Part shown: piece by piece, positions 166-40,093 of the stretch
Layout of the letters: the number at the start of each line of letters is the position of its first letter
Numbering within the stretch: the stretch's first letter is position 1
DNA from: Gorsachius magnificus
Lineage: Eukaryota; Chordata; Aves; Pelecaniformes; Ardeidae
Direction of reading: 5' to 3'
Length of the DNA: 64,000 nt
Assembly: GCA_034008185.1 (NCBI GenBank)
Contig: CM067082.1
Coordinates: forward strand, 124,373,988 to 124,437,987
The notes under the pieces: model-generated
Seen by the model: the letters and a program-made list of their open reading frames with translations, nothing else
Databases searched by the model: none
Told to the model about the DNA's origin: nothing
Translations under genes and position numbers: made by a program

Positions 166-307
166 CTGTCAGTCAGAGGTGTAATAACTAGCTGAGGGGT
201 ATTTTCCAAGTACCCATAGAAACCAAGCATCACAAATGGTGGCAAAACAGTGTTTCTGGGTGCCATCCCATCTATGGCATAGCTGTGACAGCTGGGGAAC
301 TGGTGAC
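166..307 (-). pseudogene. DNAH11: DNAH11 remnant, exon just before AAA1, two frameshifts
   Basis: The acceptor is cttttag and the donor is ACAG|gtaatg. Three frames are needed: VTSSP; then [20 protein letters not shown] with DAWF; then [17 protein letters not shown]. The human counterparts are VVSP, [20 protein letters not shown] with DAQF, and [17 protein letters not shown]. The deletions lie near 292 (11 nt) and 219 (8 nt), a total deficit of 19 nt from the expected 161. The next exon, carrying the AAA1 P-loop, is outside the window. Confidence 0.94.
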
Positions 308-1346
308 CTAAAAGGCCACTGCAGAGCCATTATGCCAGGTAGGAGCTATTCAGATGAAAGAAACGCAACTCATCACAAAGCTACAGCTGTCTTCCCTAGG
401 TTTCACACCTCATTACTAGCCACTTATGAATAATAACTACTACAACCAATTATAAAGGATTAGACCCAGCCTGAGGCATTTGTGCTTTTATACAGATGCA
501 AGTGTAATATAAGATCTTTTTAATAGAGCTATTACAGCACATTACCACTTATTAAGCCAAGACCTCACCTTACAAACAATTCAGTCTTTGCATAGGAGCA
601 GACATTACTTTCACCAGAATGAGTTTCATTTTACCCCTTCAAGCCTTGTTCCCTCTTGTCTTAATGCCATCTTAGAAACCCATTTTATTTCCGAGGCTCA
701 GGAGGTCAGAAGGAAAATGAGAATTCTTTCACATTTCACTCCTTATCCAGTGAAACGTTTCATGCATTCAAACCAGCAACCTGTGCCAGCCACCTTAGTT
801 TTACCTGAACAAAATTATACATAGGGAACAGTCCTTGGTTTAAATAAACACTCAAAATTGTAATTGTATGCACTTAAGAGCCACCACAGGAGAGGAGTGC
901 CTTGTTCTAGAGATGCACATGTATGCCTCTAGAAGGAGAGCAAAACACACTGTGAACGACTGAAGATAGAATAAATAAAAGTGGAATAACTAAAGGCATC
1001 TGGAAAAACTGCTTGGATTGCCCAAGGATTGTCTGCAGTCAGTTTTGTGATCTGAAATCTAAAGGAAATATCTTGCTTCTCACAGAAAGCCTGCTAAAAG
1101 TTTGAACGGTTCCCAGAAGTAGGGTAAAAGTTGACACCTGACTTTTGTTCAGGAAAATTTTAAATTCAGAAGGCAATAGCCCACAAAACCACAGGCATGG
1201 CACACAGCTCTGAAGCAGGCCATCTTTATGATTATACACCACCTTCTTCCTCATGTCTACATGCAGATCCAGACCCAAACTTGGCTTAAGTAATATTAAT
1301 TCTTTTCAAATCCACTAAAACTGCAATAGTTGATCCAAATACATAC
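308..1346. other. DNAH11 intron remnant
   Basis: Unique AT-rich sequence between two exon remnants. I see no repeat, RNA gene or coding homology. Confidence 0.6.
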
Positions 1347-1478
1347 CTTCTGGGCTACAAGACTTGCTACTACCCCTCTAGCATGAACATCTAGGGTGCA
1401 AATGGTCATGCTTTTCTGTCAATCACCCGAGGAAAGTTCTCCAAGCCACACGGTAATAAGAGCATATAGCCGAGTGAC
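1347..1478 (-). pseudogene. DNAH11: DNAH11 remnant, linker exon with TGA stop
   Basis: The acceptor is ttttcag and the donor is AAG|gtatgt; the exon is 132 nt, the expected 44 codons with no indel. It reads VTRLYALITVWLGELSSGD, TGA at 1419-1421, QKSMTICTLDVHARGVVASL. The stop replaces the Arg of [20 protein letters not shown]. A CGA to TGA transition is typical of CpG decay. Confidence 0.95.
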
Positions 1479-2564
1479 CTGAAAAGATTTATGTAGCCCT
1501 CTAAGACCAGATGGATCCCTGCATCATCTATCATTACTCCTTCTAGAAATTAGTTCTGCCTACATTGTGAATTAAGTTACCACAAAAACTAGCTTGTATG
1601 TACAAATTTACTGATATTAAACCTCAGATGCCATAAATCCTGGTTCAAACAGACATTTCAAATCACCTCCAAGGCAATGACAAACCAGATGAGTACAAGT
1701 ACTGAAGATGGTCAGTAGGCAAGTAGGAAGAATGGATGGAGGAAAAGATTTGCATGAAGAATTATAAATTGTATGGTTACCATCTTCAAAGAGATATGCA
1801 CCAGACTCTGCAGAACTTGTGGTACTAATTGCTTGGTACTAATTGCTTGAGAACATTTATTGCCAAACTGCTTGAAAATACACTTTAGGAAAGATCACAT
1901 TTTAAAAATAATCAAAGCAACGAAGGTAAGATCACAAAATGATATGAATTTATTATACAGAGTTACATAGTAGAAAGACCCTGTGGAATTTTTCAGGTTT
2001 CATATTAATAGGAAAGAAAAATGTACACAGTTACTACATGTAATTTTAAGGAGGCAAATATAACTAACTTTAATAGAAAGATATTTTACTGGGTAGCTGG
2101 CGTGGTGAAAAATGGGTGGTGAATTAGTGAGACCTCAAACACTACATTTCCTGTATTATTTTTATATGATATAAAAAACCACCTACTGGTGCTGAGACAG
2201 AGTTAAAGCCCCAGAATGCAATGCTCCATGCAAACAAGTTATCTGAGAATCAGAGCCTATGCCCTAATAGATTTTGAAAATGCTTACAAAAATAAAACCA
2301 GCAGATAATTTCACCACGCTTCATATTTTTCTGTATCATATCATGGAGGAGGTATCACGCACCCAAACCTCCACTTCTTTATGGCAGTGAGCCGCTATCT
2401 CCAGAGAGGTCTAGATGACCTTTCCTAGTCCACTCTTTTTACAGCAGAACCAGTCCAAATTCCCCACCACAGGTTGCACCATCAGGAAGCAGCAACAACA
2501 TGAGACAGTTCTGCTCTACTTGCAAAGTGACCACAAAACCAGCCTGCCTGGATCACACAGAGGT
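1479..2564. other. DNAH11 intron remnant left of the LTR
   Basis: Ordinary AT-rich intronic DNA up to the LTR insertion point. A short direct duplication (ggtactaattgctt-like) occurs near 1822-1850. Confidence 0.55.
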
Positions 2565-3088: not shown

Positions 3089-3097
3089 AGGTTCATC

Positions 3098-5827: not shown

Positions 5828-6910
5828 CATCATGGATAAGTCTCTACTGTTCAGAAAAGCTAGCAGAGATTGTTTAAAAAACGACCCCTATGCCCCCCCC
5901 CCAAAAAAAACCCAAACTCACCACCAAAAACGCCAAAACTAAACACATGCCACAATTTGCCACAGACACGTCAGCCAGAATTTACTAAGCAAAAAAAAAC
6001 CCCAACAACACCAAACCCTCCAAAACATGCCGCCCATTTTATCACCATATTTAATAGTCATGAACTGGACTGAAATTTGGCTAACCCTTCATTTGACTTC
6101 TGTCATTCTGTAGCCAAAACTTTCGTATTTTAAACTCTACGCTGTGTGAAAGTGTTTCTTTTGTTTAAAGTCTGCTACCTAACAGCTTCAGGTAATGTTT
6201 ATTAGCTCTTCTATTATGGGAAACAGTGAACAAAGATTAATCTTTATCCACCTCCTCTATTACAGGGATAATTTTAGACACCTCTATCCGATTCCCCCCT
6301 CCCATCCCCCTTAAAGGTCTCCTTCCTATTTCATATTTCCCTTTAGCAGATTTTCTAGGTTGGAAAAGAAAATGAAAACTACTTAAATTTTTCAAAAAGA
6401 GAAACAATACGCACACCAGAACAAAAACATTCAAAAGAAGCTGGAAGTAAACAAGGATGAAGCAAAAAGCAAATGGCAGAAGGTACTATTCTGAAGTGGA
6501 GCTAAAATAGATAATAGTAGAAGTATTCTGTTTGGTTCAACAGAAACAAAACCAACAGTTTTGGCTTCCTTACACAAATTATAGGGGTTTTAATACTTGT
6601 ATAAGTACTAATTGCATACTCTGTTCTTGCTACACTATCATGGTTGACATTTGGCTGTATCTTTGCTTTCATCGTTCATTTCAGTTCAGAATAATCCCAC
6701 AGAAAATTCAGTAATTAAGATGTGATAAAAGAGCCCATGAGATGACAGAAATGGAAGCAAAAGGCATATTTCTTTTTTTCCGTAGATGCTAATAGCAGTT
6801 TATTTACTACAGGATTAAAATTATTAAATATGCCACTCATCTCTTTTCACGAGGCCATTTTCACACTGTATTTCTTTTCACTGTATTAAACAAAAAGAAG
6901 ATACCCATAC
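5828..6910. other. DNAH11 intron remnant with A/C-rich low-complexity tract
   Basis: It holds a stretch at about 5890-6030 in which the plus strand is nearly all C and A (runs of C then A). The rest is ordinary AT-rich DNA with no exon. Confidence 0.6.
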
Positions 6911-7116
6911 CTGCTTCTTGTGCCAAACCTTCAGGGCTGATGCCAAGCCCTCTTCCAGCCTACCAAATGCCATTTCAACATCTGAAAACCACCAGATTCA
7001 TGAACGAGCAAGTGCAATCTGGGCTGCTTCTCTTCATAGGCCAGTATTGCCTCCACGATGCAGAGGCGCAGACTTTTGTGTACAGTTTCCTCAGGGTGTT
7101 GCAACCAAGACTTTAC
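6911..7116 (-). pseudogene. DNAH11: DNAH11 remnant, linker exon with 28-nt deletion and TGA stop
   Basis: The acceptor is cttcaaaag and the donor is CAG|gtatgg. It reads VKSWLQHPEETVHKSLRLCI and VEAILAYEEK. A deletion at about 7025 then removes the PRELWIFDFP equivalent and shifts the frame. In the new frame it reads AQIALARS, TGA at 6998-7000, [17 protein letters not shown] and the end LKVWHKKQ. The exon is 206 nt against 234 expected, a 28-nt deficit that is not a multiple of three. Confidence 0.92.
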
Positions 7117-8261
7117 CTTTTGAAGGGAAAATCCCCAAGCATGTATATATTTATGCCTGTAATCTAAATGGTACATTTTGTATTAACAATATAGGAAGCT
7201 CATCCCATTACTCTTCACAAAGGGTTTTCTGTGCATAAAGATTTCTTTACAAACTTGAACCACGGGATTTTTTTCCTTCCATTTTCTCTCTCCTACTGCC
7301 TCTCCAGTAGAATTTAGTTCAGAGGAGCCCTTCCCAATTACTGAAATAACAGACGTTGTTTTGTTTTACATACCCATTTGACTTATTTGACTGACCCCCA
7401 GATATAGTGTCTTTGAGCTCCAAGTATGGAAGGCTGAAGTTTTTCTGTTCCACAGACAGAAACACAGACAATACAGTCTTTTCTATGTCTCCATGCACTC
7501 AAATGCAGCTGTATCTTGAAGAAACTATCTCCAAGAGGCAAGCTGCATATATTTGCCCATTCAGTCTGGGGCCTCCCTGCTGAGAAAAATCAATCATTAG
7601 AACCACATGCAACATTGATTTTATGCAATGTGAATGCTTATCCATTCAGCACTGTTCTGAGAACAATACGTTATTGTCTCGGAAGCTGCTGATCTGTTCT
7701 TTCTGACCTACCACTACCCAGTTAGCACACATACTGGCTGGCCAATTAGCAAATACGAGGCTCAAAATCAGCTAAAACCCTGTTCAGCTCATAGGGTATA
7801 TGGGGGAGAGCTGGAGGTCTGGAGAGGTGTGGGCTAGAGGATAATAGAGGAGGGGATCTGAAAATATAATGGAAGATGAAATAAAAGGGCAGAAGAAGAG
7901 AAGTAGTATGAGAAATGCAACATTCAACCATAGGCTTCATCAGTTCTGTGGCTTTGAATACATTTTTTTTTTTCTTCTTCATTGCTCATAGATACTTAAC
8001 TCTCTATGCTTCTTAAAAAACCCAAAGCCTTATGTACAAGGGGCAGCTAGACAATTTAATAAATTATTAGTTTATTACACAGTTTTGGGCCACAAAATGT
8101 TTTGACATTTGGAAAAAGTAGTTGTAAAGGGTTTTTATTATTTTTTTTTCCCTAAATTTACTTCTGTAAAAGCAGCATTTCATGCCACTGAAAGTCTCTA
8201 TTTAATCAACATCCCAAAGGCGACAAAAACCATGAAGGAAATTTCACATAACTCAACATAC

Positions 8262-8411
8262 CTGACCATGGCATCCACACCCTTCATAGAACGGAACATA
8301 CTCCTTTTCTCTGCTGTACGTCCCAAGGGCAGTATTTACAGATTCCTCTATGTTGTCTTGAAATTTAAGATCAGCAACGTTGTCAAAAAGTTTGGTAAGA
8401 TGATGGCCAAC
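8262..8411 (-). pseudogene. DNAH11: DNAH11 remnant, linker exon (open frame)
   Basis: A 50-codon phase-0 exon runs from acceptor gggtgcag to donor CAG|gtatgt. It reads VGHHLTKLFDNVADLKFQDN, then ALGTYSREKEYVPFYEGCGC. The human counterpart is [20 protein letters not shown] and AVGMYSKEKEYVPF. The exon itself is intact. Confidence 0.93.
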
Positions 8412-10020
8412 CTGCACCCAAAAATACCAGACATTTAAGGAAACAGTTTACCTTAGATTTGTATCAATCATACTGCTTTAATGCATATATTTGTTAAAGT
8501 GCATGAGTACCACACTAACATTTGCTGTACACAATAAGATTTTGTGGTTCAGCAAAATTTAACAGTTTTTAGCAACTAACTGGGTAACACTAAGTCCTTG
8601 CACTAAATCTTACAATTGCATTTCTTATTCTAATGCTTTTAGAACATAGTGCTTCAACTGATCTTAGAAAGTAGGATGCACTGAATGACCAGGTGAGTAA
8701 TCAAAATGTCATTCTTAAGTTTTAAATGCTAGAAAAAAATGCATTTTGATTTTTTATTTGTATTAGAACACTTGTTCCAACTGAACAAATAATAAGAGTA
8801 CTTCTGATTTCCCTGGTGGCACAGACTGACATGGCAATGCTATCTGACTGTCTGTTGCATGATCACTACACAGGAGGTCTTTATGGGAAAAGCTGGGATT
8901 AATTACACTATTTTCAGTCATCAGAATAATCTGAAGGACAAAAGATGGCTCGATATAAAAACTGAGAAGTCTTGAAGTCATTACTAATTATGGCTAGTGG
9001 TTATTTTATAAACAGTCAATTCAGGTCTAAATGCCTTTTGTAACTACATGCCTCTCCAAAGCCCATAGAGTTTGAGGATCACTGTGGTGTGTACACCAGC
9101 ATGCTCTATGCCTGATAACTAGAACAGAAGATTTGTTTGATTGCTCTTATATACGGTGCACAGCAATGAGTGGATGAAACAAGTCACAAAGACTTAGTTC
9201 TGTAAAGAAGCTATGAGATTCACTCCATCATCATGTTTGAAAAGGCTCAGTGTTCAAGCCTCACAAGCCCTTTACCCTCTTGGAAAGTATCATATGTCAC
9301 ATCACATCTAAAAAGGCTTTGCCCGAGACACACCAATAACTCTAGCACTCAGAGAATTAATGGCCATGGCTGGATAGTCACCGAGGCCAGGAGTATCATC
9401 TGGCATGTAGATAACATAGTATAAAGCTCCTGAAATACATCAAAGTGCCTGTGTTTTACATAAATTGGTCTCAAAGTGTCACAAAACCTAGCAGATTATT
9501 GTTCAAGGGAGGAAAACAGAAGAATAGGTATAAAAACATTCCTCGTACAATGGTCAGCAGCTCAGTCAGAAACAGCCTAACAGCGACCATAGATCTTTCA
9601 GTCTTACTTATCATCACTCTGCATAGGATGCCTGAAATTTGATCAATCAGCACCAGAAGCAGAATACATTTGATGATCACATTGACCTTTGTCATTTCTA
9701 ATTCCTGCAAACCTACAATCCGATCATCCAAATAAATGCAAATTGCACATAGCTAGATTTCCAGTAAGAGACAGCGCAGGGTTTGTAACCCTTCTCCTCA
9801 GCATGCTGGTTTCACCTCTCCTTGCTGAACACCTTGTACCCGTCCTAGCTGGAGGGAAAACATTTACTACCTTCTTCACAGAAAATGTTCCTATTTGTAA
9901 GGTAAATTACCACTCAGAAACAAAGGTGCAGTTCTACGACACTATCTCCTCACACGGTTAGAGGGAAAACTTGCCTTTCTGTAGGCAAAATGAAGTACAA
10001 CTGTATGCAAGCAGGTTCAC
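8412..10020. other. DNAH11 intron remnant
   Basis: Unique AT-rich sequence. Several short open frames carry no recognisable domain. Confidence 0.55.
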
Positions 10021-10147
10021 CTGTTTGGGCTCTGTTCCTTTTGAAAGGTCATCTAGCAAGTCTGCTGAAGAAACAAAATAGAAGCAAGGAAAAGCTATGC
10101 GCTTGGTTTCTAAATATTCAACCAGAGCTTTTTCACAAAGAGGAATT
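10021..10147 (-). pseudogene. DNAH11: DNAH11 remnant, linker exon (open frame)
   Basis: The acceptor is ctgtttag and the donor is CAG|gtgaac; the exon is 127 nt with one split base at the start. It reads [20 protein letters not shown] then [21 protein letters not shown] in part. The human counterpart is [20 protein letters not shown] and FYFISSADLLDILSKG. Substitutions R to C and I to D fall at conserved positions. There is no stop. Confidence 0.93.
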
Positions 10148-11276
10148 CTAAACAGAACACAGAGATTTTAACATTACATGCCTTTAAACCCCCTAAAGCC
10201 AAGAACTGCCCCTCAGTTAAGGAAGAAATCAGACCAAAGAGTACAACAGAACAACCCAATCCACTCTTGATTTAAAATAATAACAATTAATAGAACTGCA
10301 AGGGACAGATAAGGTGGCAAACCTTACGGGTTTCCTTTCCAGAAACTAAAACAGAACACGCTCTTTTTACTCGTTCAGACCAAGGAACTGAAGAGAACTG
10401 AATGGTGCCAGAAACGTCCCTGAAAAGGTAAGTTTGGCTAAGTGGAAACTCCCCTTCAACCTTCCAGAGTCCAGCCTTAGAAAGTAAGGAACAAGAACAA
10501 AGTTCTTACTTGACAGGGCAGTTATTTGCAGATAAATTAAAAGAAAAAAAAGCAGCTAAGAACTAGTCTAATGGGGGAGCAAAGTAACTACTTTTCTTAA
10601 GATGCACACATTTTCTTTCATGTATGAAGGATAACAAACATGAAAACATACATTGGTATTGACAGAAAAAGTATTAAGAATCACAATACTCAATTACATG
10701 TGACTGATGCACTTTAGCTGTTAGCTTGGTATCTCTCATAACAAAAGTGACATCTCAAAAACCAGGTTTGCGTTTTGTTTGGGTGGTTTGTTTGTTGTTT
10801 TTTTTAAACTACCTCTTACAACTTTTTCCTGCAAGAAGAAATAGGCTGTGACTCCAAACATGGCTGCCTCTACAGGTAGGAAGACTGAATGTCACTGGGC
10901 AGTTCCAGGCATACCTTTAAGCGTGGTGGGGAAGGACCTTTGCTCTACGCAATCCACTATCTCCTGCTGTAAGCGTGAAAGAAAGGCTCCCAGCTCCCAG
11001 GTTGTGGATAGGAAGGAAATTCATTTGATCCAAACTGAACTAATTTTTAAGACCTTCGACAATTTTTACATTGTGCAATACATAAATAATGAACCAATGC
11101 CTCAAATGTGAGCGATCATATAAATAGTAGTAGAAATCCAATATGTCAAATGGAAACAAATGACAAAAATGCTATCATCAGATCATCTCACACCTGTACA
11201 AAAAGCAAACATGACCTGACAGCTCTCATTTCCTGACTGTTCCAGAACCACGCTTTCAAACAATTCATAATCATAC

Positions 11277-11375
11277 TGGATTTTTCAATTTTTTCAAATA
11301 AAATTTTTCATACAACTTTGGCTTTTTTGTAGCTTCCATCACATTTTTTGTATTTGGTCTGTCGGTCACCAACTC
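11277..11375 (-). pseudogene. DNAH11: DNAH11 remnant, linker exon, out-of-phase 3' end
   Basis: After acceptor tgtacag it reads ELVTDRPNTKNVMEATKKPK, LYEK, then a two-codon insertion FY, then LKKLKN. The human counterpart is [31 protein letters not shown]. The only usable donor, CCA|gtatga, leaves 99 nt (phase 0), while the next exon needs a phase-2 partner, so the junction shifts the frame. The 3' boundary is inferred. Confidence 0.8.
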
Positions 11376-12640
11376 CTGTACAGAAGTGTGAGGAAGTTAT
11401 TGCAACAGGTGGAATTCCTCTCAGATTTTTTTTTCTACTTCACACTGTTTACTATACTGGGACAAGAAAAGCAATGGGAAAAAGAGCTGGAAGAAGGCAT
11501 TTCATCAGCTTGGTTTAGGTTCTATTTCTTAAACAGCAAAAGAAAAATCAACAAACACCTATTTTGACAGCATTTAGGCTGAACATGAAGGAAACATAAA
11601 ATAACAGAGAGAACTGCACTGGAGGAAAGAAATCCACATTCTAACAAGTTAAAAGCGACAGATCATAACAGACGCATTAACTTGTACAATAATTTTGCTC
11701 ATGTATGTAAGCCCAACGCCTTCTTCAACAGGGACCATCAAGAAACTTATACACATTAAACAGCATGAATAATTTCATTGTTCTTAACAGGTTTCTCAAC
11801 TCACGCAAATGTGTGAATATAGATAATTTTTTTAGCATATAGTTAGACATGCTGCTGCCCACCTTGTTTAAGTCACAGGTTTAAACAATCTGAAATGTAT
11901 TTGAAATTTTAAACATAGAACCTCCCTATACAACATTATCATACCTTGGCTTTTCAGAATTTGCACATAATGAGAACTTTCCCTGGCATATGTGGTTTGG
12001 ATTATAGGTATATTGATAACACACAAATTATTCTCTTTACTAAGCAGGGGTTCAGTGACTTTTTTTGGTCAGAATGAACAATTAAGGCACAATATTTTGC
12101 GTAAATTCAAATGTTTAGTTTGAATGCGGTAATTACCTCTGGCCAGTAATAAATAATAGACCATAAACCCCCTTGTATTTCAACTACCATTGTCCTAAAT
12201 GACATGGAGCTTGGCAGAAGGGACTTCTGTAACTCAGAAGTATTTTATCTCTGTGACTCCAAGAGGTTAAAAAGCCACCAAAGATTAAATAAAAGAAGGT
12301 ATTAAAGCCAGGTGAAGGAATAACCTGCAGAACTTTGTCACAAACCATGATTTGTGACAATGTGTCAACCAGCAACTGCCAGTCCATGCAAAAGGAAAAC
12401 AAGACAAATTACTTTGATTTTGATAATAAAGAATGCAAAACCCACTTCTGATACTCTTCTAAGTAAGCCTGAGACTCTCACAATAGTGTTAATTCAGTGG
12501 GTTAAAAACAAGCCTATCACAGAAATATTCAAACTAACTGTCAATATGGTATTATTTTTAAAAAATAGATATTTCATTACCCACTCTAAATAATTTAAAT
12601 GCAAGATATAAATGGACATAAACCACTAAACTCTATTAAC

Positions 12641-12865
12641 TTTGAAGTCTCTGTTGATTTCATCCAATCTGTCTCCATCTTCAGGCAGCTGGTTTCCAGT
12701 ATCTTTGGAGCTAGTGAAAACACCTTCTGGATAGGACCATGTGTGTTGAACTTCCATCTAAATGGAGATGACAGAATCTGCCATGTTTAATTTATTTTTC
12801 CAACATTTCACTTGTTCAATGAAATATAGCACATATTGACTTTTCAGAATTGTTTGTGGCTGAAC
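12641..12865 (-). pseudogene. DNAH11: DNAH11 remnant, linker exon with TAG stop
   Basis: The acceptor is tcctag and the donor is AAA|gttaat (weak). The length is 225 nt, exactly the expected 75 codons, with no indel. It reads [20 protein letters not shown] and [15 protein letters not shown], then TAG at 12758-12760, then MEVQHTWS and further codons to NRDFK. In human the stopped codon is the Trp of FTWMEVQRTWS, so a single TGG to TAG change explains it. Confidence 0.94.
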
Positions 12866-13134
12866 CTAGGAGAACAAAACCAGTGAAAAACTGCACTAAT
12901 CAAAATGTTTTATCAAACAGAGGAACTAGAGCTAGTAAGAGTTTAACAAATTCTCCTGTAACTTATTATTAACGTATATCATAACAGAAGACATCTTTAA
13001 ACAGTGCAAATGGACAGCATGTTATTAAATTATTAAAAAAAAAATCTAAGAAAATATAAGCTTAGAAAGCTGTAATTTTGTTAACTCCTACATCGAGACA
13101 GGAATGATAATATTTCTATTAATTAAATCCTTAC

Positions 13135-13246
13135 TTGATTGTTATCTAACGTTTCAAGCAGCTTTTAATAAAGGAGCTTCATTCCTGTGATGCTCTTCAT
13201 AAGAAAATTACATGGCAGCCCATGTTTGGCTGATTTCTGCCAAAAT
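13135..13246 (-). pseudogene. DNAH11: DNAH11 remnant, linker exon with TAA stop and 11-nt deletion
   Basis: The acceptor is tgttcccag and the donor is CAA|gtaagg. It reads ILAEISQTWAAM, then TAA at 13208-13210 in place of the human Lys codon of TMKFSY, then FSYEEHHRNEAPLLK. After PLLK an 11-nt deletion near 13162 removes the SDEQ region. The end LLETLDNNQ is readable only in another frame. The exon is 112 nt against 123 nt expected. Two independent null lesions lie in one exon. Confidence 0.93.
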
Positions 13247-13503
13247 CTGGGAACAAGAAGAGTAGTAATAACATTTGTCTATACATATCACATCTCCTGT
13301 TTTGAGTTGAGAACTTTCGTTAAATTATATTTCATTCACAGTGATGGTAAACTGCACGACAGAAAAGAAGTTAGTTTCACTAGGCTGTGAATTTTGCTCC
13401 CTAGGTAAGTGACATGAAAATATTCACTTCCATCATTAGTTTCTTGAAACAAGACTGAACTAAGCAAATGCAAAAACAGAAGTTAAAAATGGGCACCTCT
13501 CAC

Positions 13504-13626
13504 CTTTACAGTACCCAGCTCTTCCACAGCGTTGTCAACTATACTTTGGACTTCGTCTTCTCCTTTATGAAGCTGGAGTCCCAGAAGGTCTGTTAAGGTG
13601 GTATCCTCTGCTACTAAAAACCTGAC
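13504..13626 (-). pseudogene. DNAH11: DNAH11 remnant, linker exon (open frame)
   Basis: A 41-codon phase-0 exon runs from acceptor ctttatag to donor AAAG|gtgaga. It reads [20 protein letters not shown] then [21 protein letters not shown] in part. The human counterpart is [20 protein letters not shown] followed by the conserved IVDKAVKELG. There is no lesion. Confidence 0.92.
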
Positions 13627-15013: not shown

Positions 15014-15172
15014 TCCTGGCACGATCATGACCTGGTTCGGGTGTCTCCCTCTGATTGCACGATTTTGCAACTCCAGTATTGCCCTCAGTGATGACATCAG
15101 ATTCTTCACCTTTAACTCCAAGCCCCTACATACACCCTGGGAATGAACTTCTTTATCCAAAGACCACATTTC
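15014..15172 (-). pseudogene. DNAH11: DNAH11 remnant, exon (open frame, diverged)
   Basis: The acceptor is ccttag and the donor is GGA|gtaagt; the exon has 53 codons, the same length as in human. It reads EMWSLDKEVHSQGVCRGLEL and then KVKNLMSSLRAILELQNRAI. The family motif LDKEVRxWDxxTGLE has lost its Trp and Asp, and RHW is RHP, changes expected under relaxed constraint. There is no stop. Confidence 0.9.
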
Positions 15173-16522: not shown

Positions 16523-16606
16523 CTTGGCAAACCTTCCAAGCTCCACATCCATCTGTTCCACATTAATCTGTCTCCACTGGGTTTTAGCCCAATCATCAAT
16601 GCTGCT
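16523..16606 (-). pseudogene. DNAH11: DNAH11 remnant, exon with GC donor
   Basis: A 28-codon phase-0 exon follows acceptor ctgtttcag. It reads [20 protein letters not shown] then VELGRFAK, nearly the human sequence ([28 protein letters not shown]). The donor is AAG|gcaggt. This is the second GC donor in a row. It could be a tolerated GC-AG site or a decayed GT site. Confidence 0.92.
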
Positions 16607-25235: not shown

Positions 25236-27024
25236 GTAACATGACAGGGTACTTCTTTATTTGAATTTATGTTAAAAGTGGATTAAATCCACCAGAAAGC
25301 AACATTTTCCAAGTTTACAGATACTTATAGCTATGAATTAACACCAAAATCTTGAAAGTTACCAAAAGAAGGCACCCATGAAAAGAGTAGCAATAAACAT
25401 TCTTTCTGTTTTATCAGATAATACGTACCATGACTGTTAGTGAGCATAGTGTTAGGAATTATTTTAGCTACTATTACAAGATATTGCCATGTACCAACAT
25501 TTTAAAAACCTTCTCTGTATTTCATGTGGAATCAACTAATTTATTATGTACACCAGAACTGTATATAAATTACATCCTAACACTCAGGAAAAAAGGCTTA
25601 CAGACTTGACTGCAGTTCTGTATACTGTATTTCCATAATTAACTTTTATTTCTTTTTTTAATTTTTGGGAAATATTGGTGGGGGCTTTTGTTTCCCTTTA
25701 CCCAAATTTATTTTATTCACTTAAATTTATTCTATTCACTCAAATTCTTTGGCAAGAGCCATCTGAATGCTTCTCCACATATGGCACTTCTAAATAATTC
25801 AGTCATCTGATCAGGAGAAAGCATCCAGAAATGTTTTCTTAAGTAAAGGAACTTCTGTTTCAAGAAGTGGTAGACGCTGAATCCAGCTGTGTTGGAAGCC
25901 CATTTCATGCCCAGTTCCATTCAGCACTATAAAATTCCCAATTTCACCACCTCCAAGTTCACAGATATTTTTAAATAAACAAGGAACTAACAGCACAAAT
26001 GCCTATGCTCAGGGCACAATATTCCCGCGTTACTGTAATCTGAAGGATCATATGTTCTTATTTTGAAAACTTCACAGCTTTACAAAAACTCTTCATTCAT
26101 TCTGCAGACCTGCTCACTTAAAATTTTCCCTTTGATTCCACCACACTCCAGCTTTTCCTGCTTTTGAAATTCCAACATGTTAATGACCATTTCCTAGATC
26201 AAATGAATAAAAATTAATTAATGGTATGTCTCTACAAAAAAAGAAAAACAGTAACAAACCTGATATTTGAGATTATTTTTGCGTCATTTGACCTCCTCTC
26301 TTCCGGTTTGGCAGGTTAAAACCTGTGTCATCTTAAATAATTAATATGAAAAAGAAGTTGGAGGAGCAACAGGTAATTCCAGCATGGCTTCATTCTGGTT
26401 GAATCACTTATAGAATTAAAACACAAGTGGAAATTAATTGTACTACAGAACATAGACATTCAACTCCATTTTAATTTTATGAGATTAAATTTAAAAAGGT
26501 GTAGATAAGAAAGAGCAAGCACTACTAAACACATACTTTTGTGTATAAATGCATGATTTGTTATCATAACACAAAATTTCACTATGAAAATAAATCATAA
26601 ATCTTTCTCAGAAGAACAAAATTGAACCCACTTTAACCTCCTTCGTATTATGTGCCAAATTAATTTCTATGGCCTCTGATTTCACTTGAATGAAGTAATT
26701 GTTTTATGCCCCCAAGGGATGAAAATAACAGGTTCCTTGGGTGTTTAGAAATGTGTGACACCTATTCTCTTCAGGAGCAAACCAGTCATGGGTTACCCAA
26801 GCAGGCTCCTACTGGACTGCGGACCCCTTAGACTCGGTATTATGATCTAGAAGGACTTAGCTGCCACCTCACCCTGAAGGGACCTGCTTGCACGGGGCTG
26901 GGCTCTCTGTGGGACCGTCTGATTGTCAAGAATCGAGGCTGTCAGCAAGCATGCGTTCGTGTGCTGCGGCTGTAGGCGACGCTCCTGACGGGCGCAAGCA
27001 GCCACGCTTGCAAAACTGCTGGCA
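25236..27024. other. DNAH11 intron remnant
   Basis: Mostly AT-rich. From about 26760 to 27024 composition rises toward the CR1. No clear exon. Confidence 0.5.
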
Positions 27025-28708: not shown

Positions 28709-28818
28709 CTCAAGCTTCAGTAAGCGGTTGAGGAACGTATCAAATCTGGAAAACAACATCTCAGATCTGTTTAAATTCCTTGTCACAGGTGAAGTAATTC
28801 TCCAGTCTCTTTCTGTGA
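28709..28818 (-). pseudogene. DNAH11: DNAH11 remnant, tail exon with frameshift
   Basis: Acceptor ttttttag and donor GAG|gtattg bound 110 nt. The 5' half reads HRKRLENYFTCDK, like human YRKKLASYFMGRK. The 3' half, in another frame, reads NRSEMLFSRFDTFLNRLLKLE in part, like [21 protein letters not shown]. A deletion near 28775 joins the two halves out of frame, and the first frame ends at the TGA at 28761-28763. Confidence 0.85.
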
Positions 28819-29807
28819 CTAAAAAATGAATCCTTAACACTTTTTAAGGTAGTTTTAACTATTTTCACATGCTCCCACCAGCTAGACTGACCCTTACACA
28901 TCATCTTTTGCACAGTGAACATTCAGGAAATAACAGAGTAAAGGGGCGTTTTTTCTCCCCAATAAAAGTGATATTGGAAACATATTCACCTGTTTGTCCT
29001 AATACCTCCATAGCCTTTGGGTACTAATCGTCATGTAGAATAGTAGTGCCAGCACATACAGAAGTGCCAACACAAGCCCTTCTAGCCTTTTTCATTTAGT
29101 AAATTAGCAGAAGAGGGCTTCCCCCAAACCCAGAATCAAACCTAGGACACATATGTGCCTAATGTGTAATTCTGGACAGTAACATGAATAATCTGAAAGA
29201 GAGAGAGACAGGATCCATGGATAACGCTGTCTGCATGTAGCACGGTTTGGGCGGAGAGGAGGAGCAGCGATGAGGATGGGACTATATGTTGGTTTGTTGC
29301 TGTTTTTCCTTCATCAGTTTATCCCAAACTGGTATAACTTCCATTTGTTACAGATTCACAAACGCGTGATGTTAATTTCTTTAATTAATGCAATGCAGGT
29401 AGGGTTGACAGGGTTGGGGTGAGGGAAATAAAAACCTTTTCCTGGTCATAGTTCTCATTCCATTTCCCCCCTGCCATCTTCTTCTAGTTCACATTGCCAC
29501 CCCTCCTAGGTACTTCTTGCCCGCTCTTTCTCCCAGCCTTACTTTGGCACCACTTCAAAACCTGTTATTTTGGGCGGAGATCAGAATGCATGGGCTCTGT
29601 CCTTCATCAGCATTTGCTTTCTAACAGAGAGCAGTAATTTTCCAGGAATTCAAATTAATTTCAATGAAAATTTTATGTTAGTCTGTTAGTGCCCAGCTTA
29701 AACGCATGAGGAAGGAGATGGTGCAAAGTCAAAAAAGTGGCAAATGGGGCCTTGCCATATATAACAGATGCATATATGGGGCCTTCCCATACGTAATAGA
29801 TTTACAG

Positions 29808-29970: not shown

Positions 29971-32900
29971 TAACAGCTGTCTGACAAAGTAAAAATAAAT
30001 GGGAGATCTGATAGTGTAGTGTGACATGGGAAACAGAATGATTTCTTCAGATCAAGTTTCTTTTCCAAGCAAATCTAAGCACGAATCTAAGCATCCAGTT
30101 CCCATCCTGCCAGAGAGAAGGTTTCTCCAGCACACAGATGTTCATGCCACAGTTTTTTTCCCCTGAAAAAAGAATGAAGTACCCTGTACCCACTCACCAC
30201 TTCAATGCTGCTGTAAGCCTGCAACAGAGAAAGCGGATTTACTCCTCCAGGTGCTCTCAGGAGGCTCCTGTTCAGCATCAGCCCTGCCAAGCCTCCTCCT
30301 GCTTCTGTAAGCACGACCTGGGAGTTGTTTCTCACAGAAGAGAATCTGGTCACTCCTCTCACTCCCCGGTTGCGGGTCACCCTGGAAGCTGCACCCTTGT
30401 CCCCTTGAGCAGGGAACGTCGGGGAGACTGCCTGCCTGCTGCTCCTAAGGGAGGATTGTAAGGGCTGTTCAGAAAGTACAACAGGCTGGCCTTGAAGGCC
30501 TCCTGTTTCTTGACTAACAGAAGTACCTCCAGAACAGTGAATCCTACAGAATGGCTTTGCTTGCCAGCATTTAGAAGTTGTCCTACTCCCACCCAAACAG
30601 TGGATTTTGGTGGAAGCCCAGGGAAAGCTCACTGATGGCAGGATGGCAGAAAATGCATCAAGGTGACTCCTTCACAGCTCATTTGAAAACCCTGTATTTT
30701 CCTGATTTGTGCAGCTCTCAACAGCATTTTGCAATTCACAAAAGGAAATACCTACCAAGAACTGTTGTAACAAAAGAGGCAGCAAACTTATCCCAAAGGA
30801 ATGAAGGTAAGGAGCATTAACCCAACCTGAAAAGGTTATATGGCTTCTGAAGTATAGTTTTCTTTCACTAGACAAGAAACATGTTTCATTCTTAAATACC
30901 CAGTATGTGAATGGTATAGCTGGTGACTAATTGTTCAGTTCAACTTCAAATTTAATAATCTAACACTGGTTGAAAGCATCTATTATGGGGTTTACTAGAC
31001 AGCTAACAGAAGATTAATTCCATGTCTTTGTTATTGGTGTACTGCGTAGAAACTAACATTTATTTTTCAGGTACTTATGTGATTTATTACCCTTACTTGA
31101 AGCTACCTGATCAACAAGCAGATTGCAAAATTCCTGCAGCAGAACTCCTATTCATGCAGGCATGCTGTAGAACTTGGAGTGGCTCCATATCAGGCAGATG
31201 GTATGAAATAAAGGTGGGATTAAATTACGGATCTTTGGGAATTCCATCTCCCAAAAGAGCTGAATGTATTTTTCCAGTGGTCTCAGATACAGATCAGTAT
31301 CCTGGGCTCCTACAAGTGCTGTAAAAATATAAAAGGAAAAAATGCTTCAGCTTAAGAGACAATCATTTCCAAATTAACCTAGCCTTGGTGAAGAATGCAG
31401 AGTTATCCTGTACTTATTTAAAAGAGAAAGGTATGTAGGTTTTAGTGGCATGTTACAGCCAAAGATTGCTTATGAAACTGCAGAGGCTGTGCAAGTGGAT
31501 AGGATGGTTCCCATTCCACTGTTGGTAGTTAAGGCTGCTTAACAGCTCTCTATAACCAGTCTGGTGTTTCTCCCACTGCTGCCAACCAGACTGAGGAGAA
31601 GCAGGAATCATTGCAGACACCCAGGTCATTGGAACATTAAATTCTACCTTAGAATGAAAGAAAAAAAAAAATAAATTCTGAAGCCGCCAATCATTTTAAA
31701 GAGACAGGCCAGGTCTGATCACAAGAGGTCAAATGATAATGAATTAATACTCCTGACGAATCTGGCACCAAGAGGAAAGTGCATCTTGGCATTCTGGACG
31801 GGGGCTGTGTGCTCCACTGCACCTTCCAGTGCTATGTTCAATGGCTTGGTGTTTTTTCGTCAAAGGGGAAGAGGCCTCCATGTCTGCTTCAAGATGGGTG
31901 TTTAGCAAACACTGTCAAGTCATTGCTTTCATAGGCTGTAGAAGCTTGTGCTATTTTGCCCTTTGGCCCATGCTCTGGGCTGCTGCTGGCATGGGATGAC
32001 ATGGGAAGGGTTCAGACTCATAGACACAGTTAGATTTGGGCTCAGTTCAATGTAGATAAAGTCTGTTCTTTTCCTGCTCAAAACTCTTATTAAAATGAAA
32101 GTGGTAGAGCAGTGCCAGCCTCTACAAGTGGCAAGGTCCTGGTGAATGATGTCTTTCCATTGCCTGGTAGGTACTTCACACATCTCTGGCCTCAAAAGTT
32201 CAGAAGAGACCTGAAAATTTTTGCACACTGTCACCGCAGACTATTTGCTGACTAAAGGCACTTGATGAACTCTAGCAGTTCCAATCCTTTCTTCTAGTCA
32301 TACATAACCGAAAAACTGCTCAAACATATTTCAATTCACTAATACAAAATTATCACCCCCATCAAGAAACCAAAGTTTTAATATTGAGATTAAAAAAAAA
32401 AAAAAGAAAGAAAAAAATATGGAAATATTTGAGTACTTTAAGGTTTTATTTCAAAACTTCAACAGTGATCTTTAACCATGAGTAAAATAGGCAAGACAAT
32501 ACTTGTGAGTGTAAGCTGTTTGCAAAGCCAGTATCTCCTAAACTGAAGAACATTATAGAAGCAGCTAGTATTTTATTATATTCCATTAAAGTTTAATTTT
32601 ATATACAAAATAATATATTATCTAAACATTTCTTTATTGCTAACTGCCTTATTTAATTTCTTTTAGCAGTGGAATTTATCTATCTACAGATTTACTGCAG
32701 CTAAAGAATCAAAAACTGCTGAAAAAATGCACATACTAATTGATTTTGCTACTGGTGTCTCTCTCACCTATTTTTATGACAGGAAAAATATCCACATAAA
32801 GTTTTTTTAAAAAAAAAACCAAAACAAAACCAAAAATTGTGCTAGTTCAGCACACAAAGGAGCTTGATTTAACACGTGTATGCCCCTACAGCCCTCACCA

Positions 32901-32994: not shown

Positions 32995-33094
32995 CATCTT
33001 CTACTTCCTTGAAAATGTCCTGAGAAGCAGGATAATAGCTGCTTTCTTTGGCTTTTAAGATCTTAATCATTTTTCGAACAACAGGACTCTGAAG
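32995..33094 (-). pseudogene. DNAH11: DNAH11 remnant, tail exon (intact frame)
   Basis: The acceptor is aattatag and the donor is GATG|gtgagg; the exon is 100 nt and ends in phase 1. The reading LQSPVVRKMIKILKAKESSY then YPASQDIFKEVED aligns directly with the human LQAPIVLKMVKILTTKQSSY then FPALKDIFLAVEN. There is no lesion within the exon. I found no clear remnant of the following four or so human exons before 28.8 kb. Confidence 0.9.
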
Positions 33095-33838
33095 CTATAA
33101 TTCAACAAAGAAGAAAGCAAGCAATTAAAGATCATGGTCGCCTGTCAAAAGAGTAGAAAGAGTAGAAGGGAGAATTCAGGCAACTTACAGTTGCACTCAG
33201 AAAATTAATGAATGAAGATGTCTCAGGTCTACTAGCAGATAAAGGCTGATCCAAACCAGCTGAAATGCATGGAAAGGCCCCAAAAGCCTTCAGTGGGGCA
33301 TGAACAGGGCTCTTCATAATGTTCACCTGACATCGCAACATTGCTAATAACAAGCACGGAAGAAGCAATTAAATGAAGCTCCCAACAACATCTCATATTT
33401 GGAAAGTAAATAACCTTGTATATCTTTTTCAATTAAAAATAGTTTTTTCACGTGTAACAAGCTATAATTATTATCATTAAACAACAGTATCAGTTTCATG
33501 GCCAAATTTGGCAATAATTTCCCAAATAGAAACTTTGTTCTCAACCTCATTTCCTCCAGAGTTTGAGAAATGACATGGGAAGAAACTTAGAAAAGATGGA
33601 CAAGAACAACAGAATTCCATATAGCACTTTCTAATGTTTAACCCTCTAATGTTTAACTCTGTTCTTCTTTGGTAACTTAGCACAAAGTCTGATTACTTTG
33701 GGAAACCCCTACAAGCTATTTGCAAAAATGAAACAACAGAAAATCCCTTTTGGTGTCTCATTTTTCAGAGTGCATGGGCAAAGGCAAACCAAAAGAAAGT
33801 TCTCTTTGACATTTTCAGTAATACCTGAAATTGCTTAC

Positions 33839-34027
33839 TTGCTTATTTATATATAAAAGATTGTGTTTTCTTGCTTTCCAGAAGTTCAGCTCAGTTTGGG
33901 GTCTGGATGAAGGCCATGCAGAAGGGGTTCAGCAGAATCCCTGTTCACAGTGTCATAAATCTGATGTGAACACCTAATAACCATCGATTTGATGGCATTT
34001 AGTACTGCCCTAGAATGAGGATCTTGT
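33839..34027 (-). pseudogene. DNAH11: DNAH11 remnant, tail exon with 1-nt deletion
   Basis: Acceptor tattttgcag and donor CAA|gtaagc frame a 189-nt exon. The reading AVLNAIKSMVIRCSHQIYD followed by SAEPLLHGLHPDPK matches the human stretch around HAIESVVIEWSHQIQEI and LLNGLHLSPQ. After PDPK one base is missing between 33895 and 33894: the frame must shift to read ELNFWKARK, the counterpart of ELDFWMMRR. Without the shift the reading frame stops at TGA three codons later. The exon end is in phase with the next remnant at 33094. Confidence 0.88.
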
Positions 34028-35811
34028 CTGCAAAATATGAAAAAAGCCCCTCAATTTCAAAGCAAATACTGTACTGTGATAGTACAGAGCTCTTCTCCCT
34101 CCATTCCCCTTTACATTTAAGTATGAACAACATGGAAATTTGGATTTTAGTTCTGATAAGAGGAAAATAGTCAGAAAAAAACCCTGAAGACAGAGCTAAA
34201 AAGGCTGTTTATGAAGACACAGATCACACTTCCAGATGTATTTGCTCTTCAGAACCATAGCCAAACACCCTCTCAGAAATTATTGGCAGCGGATCCTTTG
34301 AACGGTTCCTTGCAATTATTCCAGATGCGAAAAATCTGCATTTTACTGTTTAATCTTCTAATAAATTACATGGTAATTTGGTGTTTGAATGAATGCTGAT
34401 AGTTAACATAAATATTAAATAGATTTTATTTAATATAAATTTATTACACTTTGGCAGTGTTTACAAGAAGACGAACTAAGAATACACAGCAAAGCATTTT
34501 AATAAAATATTAATGGAGCATTAAAGTTTACATTCTCACTTTCACACTATATTTTTTCCCCTTCAGACCTCTCATTTAAGCTAATTGTGCCTCAGTTTTA
34601 TCTCCATACTGCCTTACACTCTCCTGCCTGGCCCACCTGCTTCTCTGCCATGGCATACGGTAGGGAGCTGACCCTGACCAGGGCCTTCAAAGTCATTTAT
34701 TATTGACAGGATTATGAATCTTCACTTATCCAACAATTGATTATCAATCATCTCTGTACGCAGTCAGTCCTAGACTGAAACCAAGCCTTTGGTTTACTTA
34801 AATTGTGAGTTCTCTGGGATGTAGTTCGTATTATTGCTGTTTCTGTAGGTAACAGATATGTCCTAATGATTAGTGCCATGCTCCTTTTTTGACGCCATCC
34901 TTTGACATTGGTACAAATCTCATTAAAAACAATAAGACACCTTTTATGATAAGAGTTCAGTTCACATTAAACACTCAAGGTAACAGAGAACTGCAATCTA
35001 TTGAAAACACATTTAAAAGGTAATTCTACAGAATAACCCTATTTTGTACTCTGGAAACATAGCTTCATGCGATTCAAAATCCCAGTGACTCTACAGACAG
35101 CTTAAGTCTTGCCTTTGAAATTAATAAACACAAAATATAAACCCTTGAAAATTTATGTTTTCATATGACAGAGCAATTGCAGTGTTTAAAATACATTAAT
35201 TGCACATAAAATACTTTAAGACACCTTTTAATGCTTAGAAAAATGGAGTGACAAAAATATTATGTTTGGAACACTAAATATTTAATTAAATTCTTGTTAA
35301 TGCAATTTACTACTGGTTTACATCTGAGATTAAAAACCACCAAAAGCAATGCACCTTTTTCCCCTTTTTTTCCCCCCTCCCGTGCTGCATAGGCCACACA
35401 ATAACCTTTCCTTACTTATTTTCAGCATATAGTTGATGCAAGTTAGTCTACACTGCAACTGTGGGAATAGGAAGATGAGTTCCTCCTGACATCAGTCCTT
35501 TCATAATTTGTGTTTTATTTTTCATCATTTCCACACAATGCTCCATATCCTGGGAAACACAACCCGGCCAGGACGTATGGTTTTCCTTATTGCTTAGAAG
35601 AGGCACTAACACCTGGAGGTGAAGCGGGAGAAGTAACGTTACAAATCAGTAATAACAGTAACTTGGCTAGTGGTGACATACTGCAAACTGCTTCTTTAAA
35701 TCTGAGAAGAACAAGCTAACCCAGGCCACGCTTTTCAAACTCATGACTATCTGAATCAAAATCAGCTTTATATTTTCTTTATATTTATAATCCTTCTTTA
35801 TATTTTCCCTA
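34028..35811. other. DNAH11 intron remnant
   Basis: AT-rich, unique; nothing recognised. Confidence 0.5.
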
Positions 35812-35949: not shown

Positions 35950-38900
35950 ATTTTTCTATCAACATAAATATGTACTTGAATCTCAGTCAAATTGTACTGT
36001 AGATGGAAATTATATTTTGGGACAGTACTACTCAGTCAGCTGAAAATGAATACTGAGCAGCTTCAGAAACTCAGAAGTTTACACCACTTATTATCCCTCT
36101 CCTCCTTCCCTCCCTTACCTCAAAAAATAGAAACAGATTGGGAGTAGAGAGGGAGGGGAGCAGCCATAGGTTCATACCACCTATATCCAGTGTTTTCCTA
36201 ACTGGAGAAACAAATCCTAATAGCACAAACCCTCCTTTCTGTGGTTTAATAGCCACTAATATATACCATCTAAAGCCAGTTTACTTGCAGGCTATAAGCT
36301 TGTATTTAAAATTATTTCCTAGAAACAGGCACCTGTGATATCCTTTGGAAAGCTTTGTTTTCCGTGCCACAAATGCGTAACCCTGCTTATGAATTTTGTT
36401 CCAGTTCACACATTTATTTTAAATCCTTCACCTTCTTTCACTCCATAAACTTTTCCTAACTTCTTTCCACATTGTTTCTGAATCCATGTCAGTACAGGGT
36501 TCTGCTCGGGAAAGCACGTAGGAACTTGAAGTACGTTACTATTTGTCATGACACTTAAAATTAAGCACATGCTCAAATCAAAGTACTTTCTTGAATCAGG
36601 TCCAAGCCATAGGCAGATTAATTAAAACTTCACCACCAGCATCCCAAGTGAGCTTTTTAGAGGAATGTCTTCATCAGCGTATAGACTTCAGTCACTTCAG
36701 GCCCTCATAAGTATTTTATTGCCTAACATCAAATTCGACAAGTAACCTTTGAGTTACACAGTTCAGGGAGATGGACCCTTGCTATAAACTCAGTTTTAGG
36801 GCCTGGTGCAGCTAAAGATGTGCTGCTACACCCATACCCTGTCCCATTTACTCCTCTCTGTGCCCAAGTGATTTTCAAACAAGAAACTGAAAAATAACAG
36901 AAAGGGAAGCAGTAAGGAAAATAGTGATGCAAGCCTGCTCTTGCACAAGTAGTTACAAGCCCAAGGTTCACTTTTAGGCTTCAGTTTTGCTTGTTTTGAC
37001 AGTGAAGACACGAATAGCACAACAGCAAGCCTCAGCATACCTGCTGCTTTGGAGTATTACTCAACTGTAATGGGTAAGCAAGCGGGCAAAAATACAAGCT
37101 AGAGAAGCTAAGCTGAGCAGCAGTGCTCCTGCTTTATCTGTTTTAACCATCATCCCTCTCCCAAAACTTAATTTATTAGGCCCTGATAGAGTAACAAATG
37201 ATTTCTTCAGCACTTTGAAGCTCACGCTCCATGGAAGCCTGCACCCAAACACCGCCCACTGCTTCAGAGCAGCAAAGCCCTGTTCCCCCCACAGCCTTTC
37301 CTCCTCTCCTAAAAGCCTGCCTGAGAGCTCTCATTGGGACCAGCACCCATCTCATCCATGGAGAGGGAGTGCCTTATGCCGCTTGTATGCTCCCTAGAGA
37401 CTCATAAGGCAGACATTAATTTAATGAGTTAATTTGTGGCTTTATGAAAGAAGTTATGCTCCCCTAACGTAATAAACCCCTTAAACTTCCTGAACTTTGT
37501 AAGTCTGATAGGGTTTGGGTTTGCTCCAGTATGAAAAAGAGGAGCAAAACTGAAATTCTGAGGGTTATTTTTCCGTTGTTGAATACCAAAGTCAGAGTAT
37601 GAGATGTCACTGGAGTTTAGAGACTAGATTTAAATATCAAGGCTATAAATGAAACTCCTTATGTATATACTGATCAAGCACTAAATTCATGTCAAAATCT
37701 CTAAACTTTTATTTCTCATTTAGTCTCTCCTTTGCAAAAAGTTTTAAAATATTTAATTTTAAAATAAATTTTTAAGCACTTTTTGCTGAAGACTTTTTTT
37801 TTTTTTTAAATAACACAGATGAGCAACATGTGGAGACTGGAAGTTATGAGATATTTAAGTTAAAAACTTCAGCAGGTGCTACTGCTAGGACATTTTGACT
37901 TCTCTCTGCAGAAAATGCTGGGTAAGTAAACAGCCACCATAGTGCTACAGGTACCGTTTATGGCAACCAAATCTTAGATATTTGTTTCCATAACATCAAA
38001 CTAAAGGAGAAATAATCCCATTCTCATTTTAAGCAGAAATACCTGAGCCACCTGAATGCCTACATCAGGTTTCACAAAAATCAGCTTCCTTAATAAACAC
38101 AGATTTAGCAACTGTGAACTCAGTTGTCAACTTCCTCTTTTCTTTTTGCTAGTCATGATTTGCTTTCAGCCTTTTTCTCTTCCTCACTAATCTTTGAAAA
38201 AAACCTTGACCTTTCCAAACTGCCCAACAGTGGATTTCAGATGCATTCAGGTTGCCGTGCTTGAAATCCTTCTCCTTTGAAGTCAATGGAAGTTTTGTCA
38301 ATCAGGAAGAGATTTCTGTCTCGGCGGGAGAGTTGCGGTTCTATCCCTGCCCTTATTCATAACCGCTGTCTCTCAAGATCAAACCACCGAGATAATGACC
38401 AGCCTGAAATCTGAATGCTGCTAACAAAGTACTAAAAGACAGGAAGATGAAAACTATTCTTTTTGTCACTGCCATCACTTGTTATACACAGTATCTGTAA
38501 TACTGAGACAGAAATGGCACACATTTATACCCTTCTCGAAATATCAGTTCTTCATAGAAATGCAGGAGTAACAACTAAAACCGTTCTGTGAAATCTGTTT
38601 GGTTGTCTTGGTCTCGAATTTGGGTTTCCTGAATCCCAGCTACAGACAGGAACCACTTTATTGGTCTCTTCCTCAATCTAAAATTTTATTCTGGATCTGG
38701 AATTACAAAAAATTACTCAGAATTAGAGTATTTCCATTGAAAAATGTGTTATTTTGATGAGCCAACACTTCTCAAAATTTTGGGAAAGAGTCTCAGATGA
38801 TCAGGGTCAGGACCACAGGCATAACTCAGGACCTGGAAAGAACAGTACAACACTTTTACACCCATGACGTTGCCTTTTTGTACTAAGTGTAGATCCACCA

Positions 38901-39952
38901 TTGGTTTAAAGCAGAGCTTCAAATGCAATTTTAAGGGAACTTTTATTGCAATGGTAGGAGTCTGACCTGGATTACAGTCTCTCTGTACTTTTTCTTTAAG
39001 ATATTCATGTGGACTCAGCTACACTTCAAAATGAAATATTTCACATTATTCCCTGAACTTTTACAAGACAATAAAAACCTCAGACACTTTGTATCCAGCC
39101 CTAATTCTGAGTTTCTGCTGCACAGTGTGTTAATAAAGCAAGCGGTTTCTATGCAACTTTCAGACATGTACACTAAAAGAAATTGCCCATATATTAATTT
39201 AATTACTTATGCCTTATTCTTTAAGACTATCTCATGTAAGTACTTCCATTCCATTCAAAGCTGTTTTTAAAGCTTAATCCTAATTACTCTTATAAGGCAA
39301 GTTTTGAAAGCCTGTATACGAATCTATGATTTACATTTCAGAAGCAGCACAACTTTGGGAAAACTGGTAGAAAACTAAATACTTCTGTTTCTTACTACCT
39401 TCTTAGGAGCTTTCCTCCTTTATGAGCTGTAAAAGCCTTTAATCATGCGACTTCATAGGCTGTTTTTACACCATATAGTCAGCAGAGAGCCGATTTGAGG
39501 CAATGATTCCCTGTGTGCCTAAGTGCTGGTGCGGTAGCTTCACCACGTCACGGCTCCCGAAGGAGAGGCGTTTAGTCACCGCTGCCCACAAGGGAAGTGA
39601 CTCATCCCTCATCTTTCACAAATGACATATACTGGACAAGAAGTACACCGCCTATCCCCGTAGCGAGGATGGCTCTAGAGACCTGAGCACAGGACAGAAT
39701 GTATATTTCACGCTGTAAACAATTCAGATGACAGCAGTCACATCCATTATACAAAAAGCAACAGAAAGAAAGCAAGAGCGACGTGCTACACAGAACGAAG
39801 CCTCCAGCAACAAGCTGTCTCAGATGAGTCTATAGAGAGCAGAGTAGCTACTTTTTTTAGAGTCACCTTTTTCCTTCCATAAGAGTTATTTTGCCTGTTA
39901 AAACATCATCCTTGGTTTTGCTGCTTTATTACAAGTATTTGGCTATAAATAC
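35950..39952. other. DNAH11 intron remnant
   Basis: Four kilobases with only T- and A-runs (for example 37793-37808). At least one human tail exon should lie here but none is visible. Confidence 0.5.
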
Positions 39953-40093
39953 CTCCTCTATGAATGCTACTGTATGTTCGAGCGGTGTTTGAGACAGCTT
40001 CCCAAACTGAAGGTTCTTTCTGTTCTCCATTCCAAGGTGTTCTGTGGTCTTCCTCCTAGCACTGACAGCTTTCTGCATCACCTCACGCAGCAC
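39953..40093 (-). pseudogene. DNAH11: DNAH11 remnant, early tail exon (intact frame)
   Basis: This 47-codon open exon has acceptor ttcag and donor GAG|gtattt, both in phase 0. The translation includes QFGKLSQTPLEHTVAFIEE, which lines up without gaps with the human segment LFGELPALSLGHVSAFLDE. The preceding TTEHLGMEN resembles ITESIGVND. The first 15 codons are less convincing. It sits 2 kb inside the CpG island, where an early DNAH11 exon is expected. Past the donor the frame hits a stop at 39929-39931. Confidence 0.65.

Follow-up and report, generated by a model that had tools for sequence, protein, structure and literature searches.

DNAH11 is very probably a unitary pseudogene in Gorsachius magnificus, with comparable decay in gene models from five other neoavian orders

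Background

The gene mutated in the iv mouse is DNAH11, which is also a gene of human primary ciliary dyskinesia and helps to set left and right in mammals. Whether birds retain a working copy is the question raised by a stretch of Gorsachius magnificus DNA (GCA_034008185.1, contig CM067082.1, positions 124,373,988 to 124,437,987), referred to here as the window; it is 64 kb long and contains no Ns. We are confident that the window holds the DNAH11 ortholog in its place and with its introns, unable to make an outer-arm dynein heavy chain; that is, a pseudogene, and very probably a unitary one. An earlier note on the same DNA had called it a unitary pseudogene outright.

Results

Exon remnants

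The DNAH11 protein of Crocodylus porosus (P0005, 4472 aa) was compared with the window by tblastn, which returned 20 high-scoring segment pairs (HSPs) of at least 40 bits, all on the minus strand and strictly ordered, and none on the plus strand. With the same query, the reversed window and 20 shuffles gave no HSP of at least 40 bits (best scores 26.9 and 28.1 bits). Frameshift-aware alignment resolved 22 exon remnants, the one at 40093-39953 included, which run collinearly from 40093 to 165 and span approximately residues 90-1840 of 4472. The window therefore covers the first 41% or so of the gene (1840/4472 residues). Exon 1 was not recovered, residues 1-89 of the crocodile and turtle queries being without a match in the window. 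The remnants are listed below, together with the site of a deletion among them; residues are those of the crocodile protein except in the first row.

39953..40093, minus, remnant of turtle residues ~90-121; AG and GT flanks kept; frame open; one residue lost
35415..35612, minus, remnant of residues ~130-191; stop TAG at 35450
33836..34029, minus, remnant of residues ~198-262; 1-nt deletion at 33897
32996..33094, minus, remnant of residues 262-294; open frame; DHC_N1
31107..31319, minus, remnant of residues 295-365; stop TGA at 31154; DHC_N1
28709..28874, minus, remnant of residues 385-443; 11-nt deletion at 28769; exon start unrecognisable
26029..26193, minus, remnant of residues 444-498; stop TAA at 26082; donor doubtful
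21742..21861, minus, remnant of residues 500-539; open frame
18637..21741, minus, 3.1-kb stretch, expected site of the exons for residues 539-1182; deleted
18520..18636, minus, remnant of residues 1183-1221; start of match without AG
18357..18425, minus, remnant of residues 1222-1243
17462..17623, minus, remnant of residues 1250-1304; one residue deleted; GT donor lost
16523..16606, minus, remnant of residues 1304-1331; donor GC instead of GT
15008..15172, minus, remnant of residues 1332-1386
13501..13626, minus, remnant of residues ~1385-1426
13126..13246, minus, remnant of residues ~1426-1469; stop TAA at 13210; 11-nt deletion at 13162
12641..12865, minus, remnant of residues 1467-1541; stop TAG at 12760; DHC_N2
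11301..11378, minus, remnant of residues 1541-1565; exon end unrecognisable; donor doubtful
10018..10149, minus, remnant of residues 1572-1615; open frame
8259..8414, minus, remnant of residues 1614-1665; open frame
6908..7119, minus, remnant of residues 1664-1743; 28-nt deletion at 7023; stop TGA at 7000
1344..1481, minus, remnant of residues 1742-1787; stop TGA at 1421 (residue 1762)
165..291, minus, remnant of residues 1796-1840; 8-nt deletion at 222

Lesions

The exons contain seven in-frame stop codons (35450, 31154, 26082, 13210, 12760, 7000 and 1421) and five frameshifting deletions, of 1, 11, 11, 28 and 8 nt in the order listed. In addition, crocodile residues 539-1182, about 640 codons, had no counterpart in the window when crocodile, turtle, stork and penguin queries were used; the few matches from this search corresponded to other exons or to plus-strand sequence, and the exons were interpreted as deleted. 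Since the stork and penguin models keep much of this region, the 640 or so codons were lost in the line of descent that led to Gorsachius. One splice donor was lost: that at 17462 lacks GT. The donors at 26029 and 11301 were doubtful, and that at 16523 was GC. The 22 exon blocks extend across 40 kb and many retain AG and GT flanks; the introns have been kept and the locus is not a retrocopy.

Several candidate lesions were rejected. Stops at 40117, 26196, 164 and 161 lie within flanking intron, and an extra frameshift at 26131 was seen only against the Sarcoramphus model, unsupported by crocodile and Morus, and was left uncounted. The earlier note had described 19 ordered minus-strand remnants with four in-frame stops and at least six frameshifts; order, strand and both kinds of lesion stand, with the numbers now 22, seven and five, while the deletion of residues 539-1182 had been overlooked.

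Loss of constraint

At residues invariant among 20 non-bird DNAH11 proteins, the window copy was changed at 65 of 335 (19.4%, a stop being scored as a change). In seven intact controls, with the set of invariant residues defined anew without the control concerned, 0.3-3.5% of those columns were changed. This test, and the tree described below, take in six of the stops; the first segment was trimmed, so that 35450 falls outside. Exon residues of the window were 73-79% identical to those of five bird models, while segments of the same models derived from introns were 71-74% identical to the window in four cases (622, 107, 14 and 142 residues) and 54% identical in that of Chlamydotis (76 residues). 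The exons have thus been kept only slightly better than their own introns, by a yardstick that is only approximate, the choice of intron pieces having been made by a gene finder and by tblastn. With 65 of 335 invariant residues altered and exons nearly intron-like in their divergence, purifying selection on the window's DNAH11 has, to judge from sequence, been lost.

Two further segments on the minus strand, 33550-33407 and 21031-20828, matched 'exons' of the Sarcoramphus model at 83% and 81%. Both are absent from crocodile DNAH11; the model had read intron as coding sequence.

It might be supposed that the gene works and that its lesions arose in sequencing or assembly, the evidence here being assembled sequence. 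However, deletions of 8, 11, 11 and 28 nt, the loss of 640 codons, seven stops by substitution and alteration of 19% of invariant residues are not typical of such errors, and decay is also seen in five other birds (see below). We regard this explanation as having next to no chance of being correct.

Orthology

Over 163 residues the window was 72% identical to DNAH11 of crocodile, 60% to that of orangutan and 56% to that of frog; over the same residues, identity to human DNAH17 and DNAH9 was 42% and 40% respectively. The locus is the DNAH11 ortholog, nearer to DNAH11 than to DNAH9 or DNAH17. A Pfam search of three minus-strand frames from 41.5 to 11.7 kb matched DHC_N1 and DHC_N2 in the best-kept exons only; a PDB search with one frame gave a single weak match, to DNAH17, and an Rfam search gave no match.

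DNAH11 models in other birds

One protein search listed 2 proteins from 3 candidates; two longer ones gave the 120 best matches out of 1407 and out of 2701. Among the best 120 of 1407, full-length DNAH11, intact as judged by its sequence, was present in crocodile, turtles, squamates, mammals and amphibians. The birds in these lists were five: Sarcoramphus papa, Chlamydotis macqueenii, Ciconia maguari, Spheniscus humboldti and Morus bassanus (Accipitriformes, Otidiformes, Ciconiiformes, Sphenisciformes and Suliformes respectively), all neoavian, and each model was titled LOW QUALITY PROTEIN. Sarcoramphus and Chlamydotis came up in the short search; the list drawn from 1407 contained all but Chlamydotis, and the one drawn from 2701 contained Chlamydotis, Ciconia and Spheniscus. 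That title alone proves little, since one frog and one ray-finned fish DNAH11 in the same lists (P0064, P0080) carry it also. No intact bird DNAH11 was found among the best 120 of 1407 or the best 120 of 2701 matches, where such a protein would have been expected to rank high in either list.

The five bird models drop single residues at 102 sites in all (14-30 per model), against 2 and 0 in the frog and fish LOW QUALITY models; these were counted by script, with position 4231, an insertion in crocodile, excluded. The dropped residues were arginine, glutamine or tryptophan at 38 of 102 sites, compared with 10.8% of crocodile residues (p = 2.5e-12), and the bird models contain no X. We infer that the dropped residues are probably stop codons that were masked by annotators and then stripped by the database. 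Over the whole gene, the bird models were changed at 9.9-16.9% of invariant residues, compared with 1.6% and 4.1% in the frog and fish models of that title and 0.6-2.2% in three intact proteins left out of the set.

The same decay was evident beyond residue 1840, where the bird models were changed at 9.1-16.0% of invariant residues. The AAA1 P-loop, GPAGTGKT in crocodile, was GPASTGRT in Sarcoramphus, GPAGRGET in Chlamydotis, GPAGTGRT in Ciconia, GPASTGKT in Spheniscus and GPASTSKT in Morus; hence the Walker A lysine, or the glycine preceding it, was gone in four of five. These figures bear on the suggestion that the surviving exons, or the motor half beyond the window, still yield some product, truncated or turned to a new use, whether it codes for protein or not. 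In its favour, many AG/GT sites survive and a CpG island persists; yet decay of the motor half in the five other birds and a broken P-loop in four of them make the suggestion very improbable, though it deserves slightly more credit than sequencing error.

The earlier note had confined the loss to 'this lineage'. Loss itself is upheld, and that scope was too narrow, models from five other neoavian orders being likewise decayed; loss is probably Neoaves-wide and perhaps bird-wide. No report of DNAH11 loss in birds was found among the papers that the literature searches listed, which mostly exclude subscription journals. One study used 159 Dnah11 and 239 Sp4 sequences (PMC8375169); the gap might reflect missing birds, although the paper makes no such statement.

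One loss or several

Where other bird models cover the site, six of the seven window stops were private. At residue 1762, an arginine where the window has TGA (1421), the residue was dropped in stork, gannet and bustard and present in penguin and vulture; being an arginine, this site is perhaps a CpG hotspot. A one-residue loss at 1288 was common to the window, stork and gannet and absent in vulture and bustard, the penguin model being without coverage. Pairs of models shared 10 dropped residues where 1.8 were expected (1 of 20000 shuffles); when arginine sites were excluded the excess was weak, at 4 against 1.3 expected (891 of 20000 shuffles). In a FastTree phylogeny of 987 window residues the birds formed a star, on a stem of 0.184, and their terminal branches measured 0.12-0.23. 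The window copy was placed beside Morus with support of 0.87, which is a hint only given that other within-bird supports were 0.43-0.85.

These patterns could be read as independent losses: the ancestor of Neoaves would have had a functional DNAH11, and several of its descendant lineages, this one among them, would each have lost the gene on their own. The private stops, the star-like tree with its stem, and non-arginine sharing barely above chance are in keeping with this; the sharing across all sites, residue 1762 with its stop here and its loss in stork, gannet and bustard, and exon divergence near the intron level are not. We consider it a serious alternative, falling a little short of an even chance. 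Our reading is that constraint was probably released close to the root of Neoaves, and that inactivation then took place once or a few times.

Neighbouring gene, CpG island and repeats

Upstream of DNAH11 and on the same strand are three exons of an SP-family gene, two of which carry C2H2 fingers that match, among others, those of Sp1:

54868..56824, minus, three 3' exons of an SP-family neighbour; open reading frames at 54868-55176, 56089-56388 and 56474-56824

We take this gene to be SP4, and presume that its adjacency to DNAH11 is the vertebrate arrangement. The earlier note had an intact SP4 adjoining the locus; the three 3' exons are indeed open and of the SP family, but the gene is only partly in view.

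A CpG island at 41751-43000 (GC 0.61-0.81, observed/expected CpG 0.57-0.94) lies upstream of the first recognisable exon, and the stork model begins inside it. It is perhaps the former DNAH11 promoter, still CpG-rich despite the dead gene. Within it is a very G-rich tandem repeat with a period of about 45 (42009-42179, plus).

A retroelement at 2663-5737 (plus) encodes endonuclease and reverse transcriptase over 944 open amino acids, interrupted by TAG at 5495-5497 before the frame resumes to 5737; it is a young CR1-like copy in a DNAH11 intron. A CR1-like 3' part is present in two further copies (27023-27819 and 48137-48930), 91.8% identical and in opposite orientation, which flank the DNAH11 5' end. 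Both the CR1-like reverse transcriptase and the closest protein relatives mark the window as bird-like.

Discussion

That the locus is DNAH11, as the earlier note had it, was borne out: the introns are present, an SP-family gene adjoins and the gene is broken many times. Its call of a pseudogene is likewise secured by stops, frameshifts, missing codons and altered invariant residues; only 'unitary' is softened, to very probable. A number of points nevertheless weigh on the other side. The evidence is the assembled sequence of one locus and about 41% of one gene; many AG/GT splice sites are still recognisable, the CpG island persists at 41.75-43.0 kb, and most of the stops are private. A left-right dynein probe is said to have labelled the chick node. 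The bird content of the protein database was unchecked, so that the lack of an intact protein from chicken, ostrich or other birds is no more than suggestive. In a 2015 paper a transgene was placed within chicken DNAH11, in its 13th intron (PMC4447378), so chicken has a gene annotated at that place.

Selection on DNAH11 would have been lifted early in the neoavian radiation or before, after which the locus may have drifted near the rate of its own introns. As background to this, birds would break left-right symmetry without an organiser of motile cilia, and beta chains of DNAH9 or DNAH17 type would occupy the outer arms in the axonemes of airway, oviduct and sperm, so substituting for DNAH11, much as the earlier note had supposed for DNAH9-type chains. 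The widest form of the proposal is that all living birds lack a working DNAH11; that its death fell either on the avian stem or at the root of Neoaves, once symmetry was no longer broken by flow; and that every outer arm is of DNAH9 or DNAH17 type, without the proximal DNAH11 arm of mammalian airway cilia. This is offered tentatively, as something we doubt slightly more readily than we believe.

If true, birds would amount to a natural knockout, a large group of animals that lack DNAH11 although their airways are ciliated and their organ asymmetry is fixed, and another beta chain would be shown able to serve proximal outer arms. It would also bear on when the bird lineage abandoned symmetry breaking by motile cilia. 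As a caution, a database entry for DNAH11 of a bird can be a pseudogene that has been patched over.

Comparison with known systems

The window copy resembles the working left-right dynein of the mouse iv locus, an outer-arm beta heavy chain, in its exon order, its DHC_N1 and DHC_N2 domains and its 72% identity to crocodile; it differs in having seven stops and five frameshifts, and in lacking about 640 codons. The LOW QUALITY bird models are comparable to it as decayed DNAH11 with dropped residues and altered invariant residues, the P-loop being broken in four of five. Unlike it, their lesions are mostly different, and stork and penguin retain much of the region deleted here.

The other comparison is with flow-pathway genes. 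In the chick node, cilia are likely immotile and there is no cavity (PMC9816872). Chameleons lack motile organiser cilia, yet express Dnah11 in the otic vesicle and kidney, and Dand5, another gene of the flow pathway, is cited as lost in reptilian clades (PMC10126504). The loss of DNAH11 is like losses of the Dand5 type, in that a left-right gene is gone where the organiser is without motile cilia. It is unlike them in that turtles, crocodile and squamates keep DNAH11 and chameleons express it. Loss of a motile organiser is thus insufficient by itself to explain the loss of DNAH11, and birds must also cope without it in other ciliated tissues.

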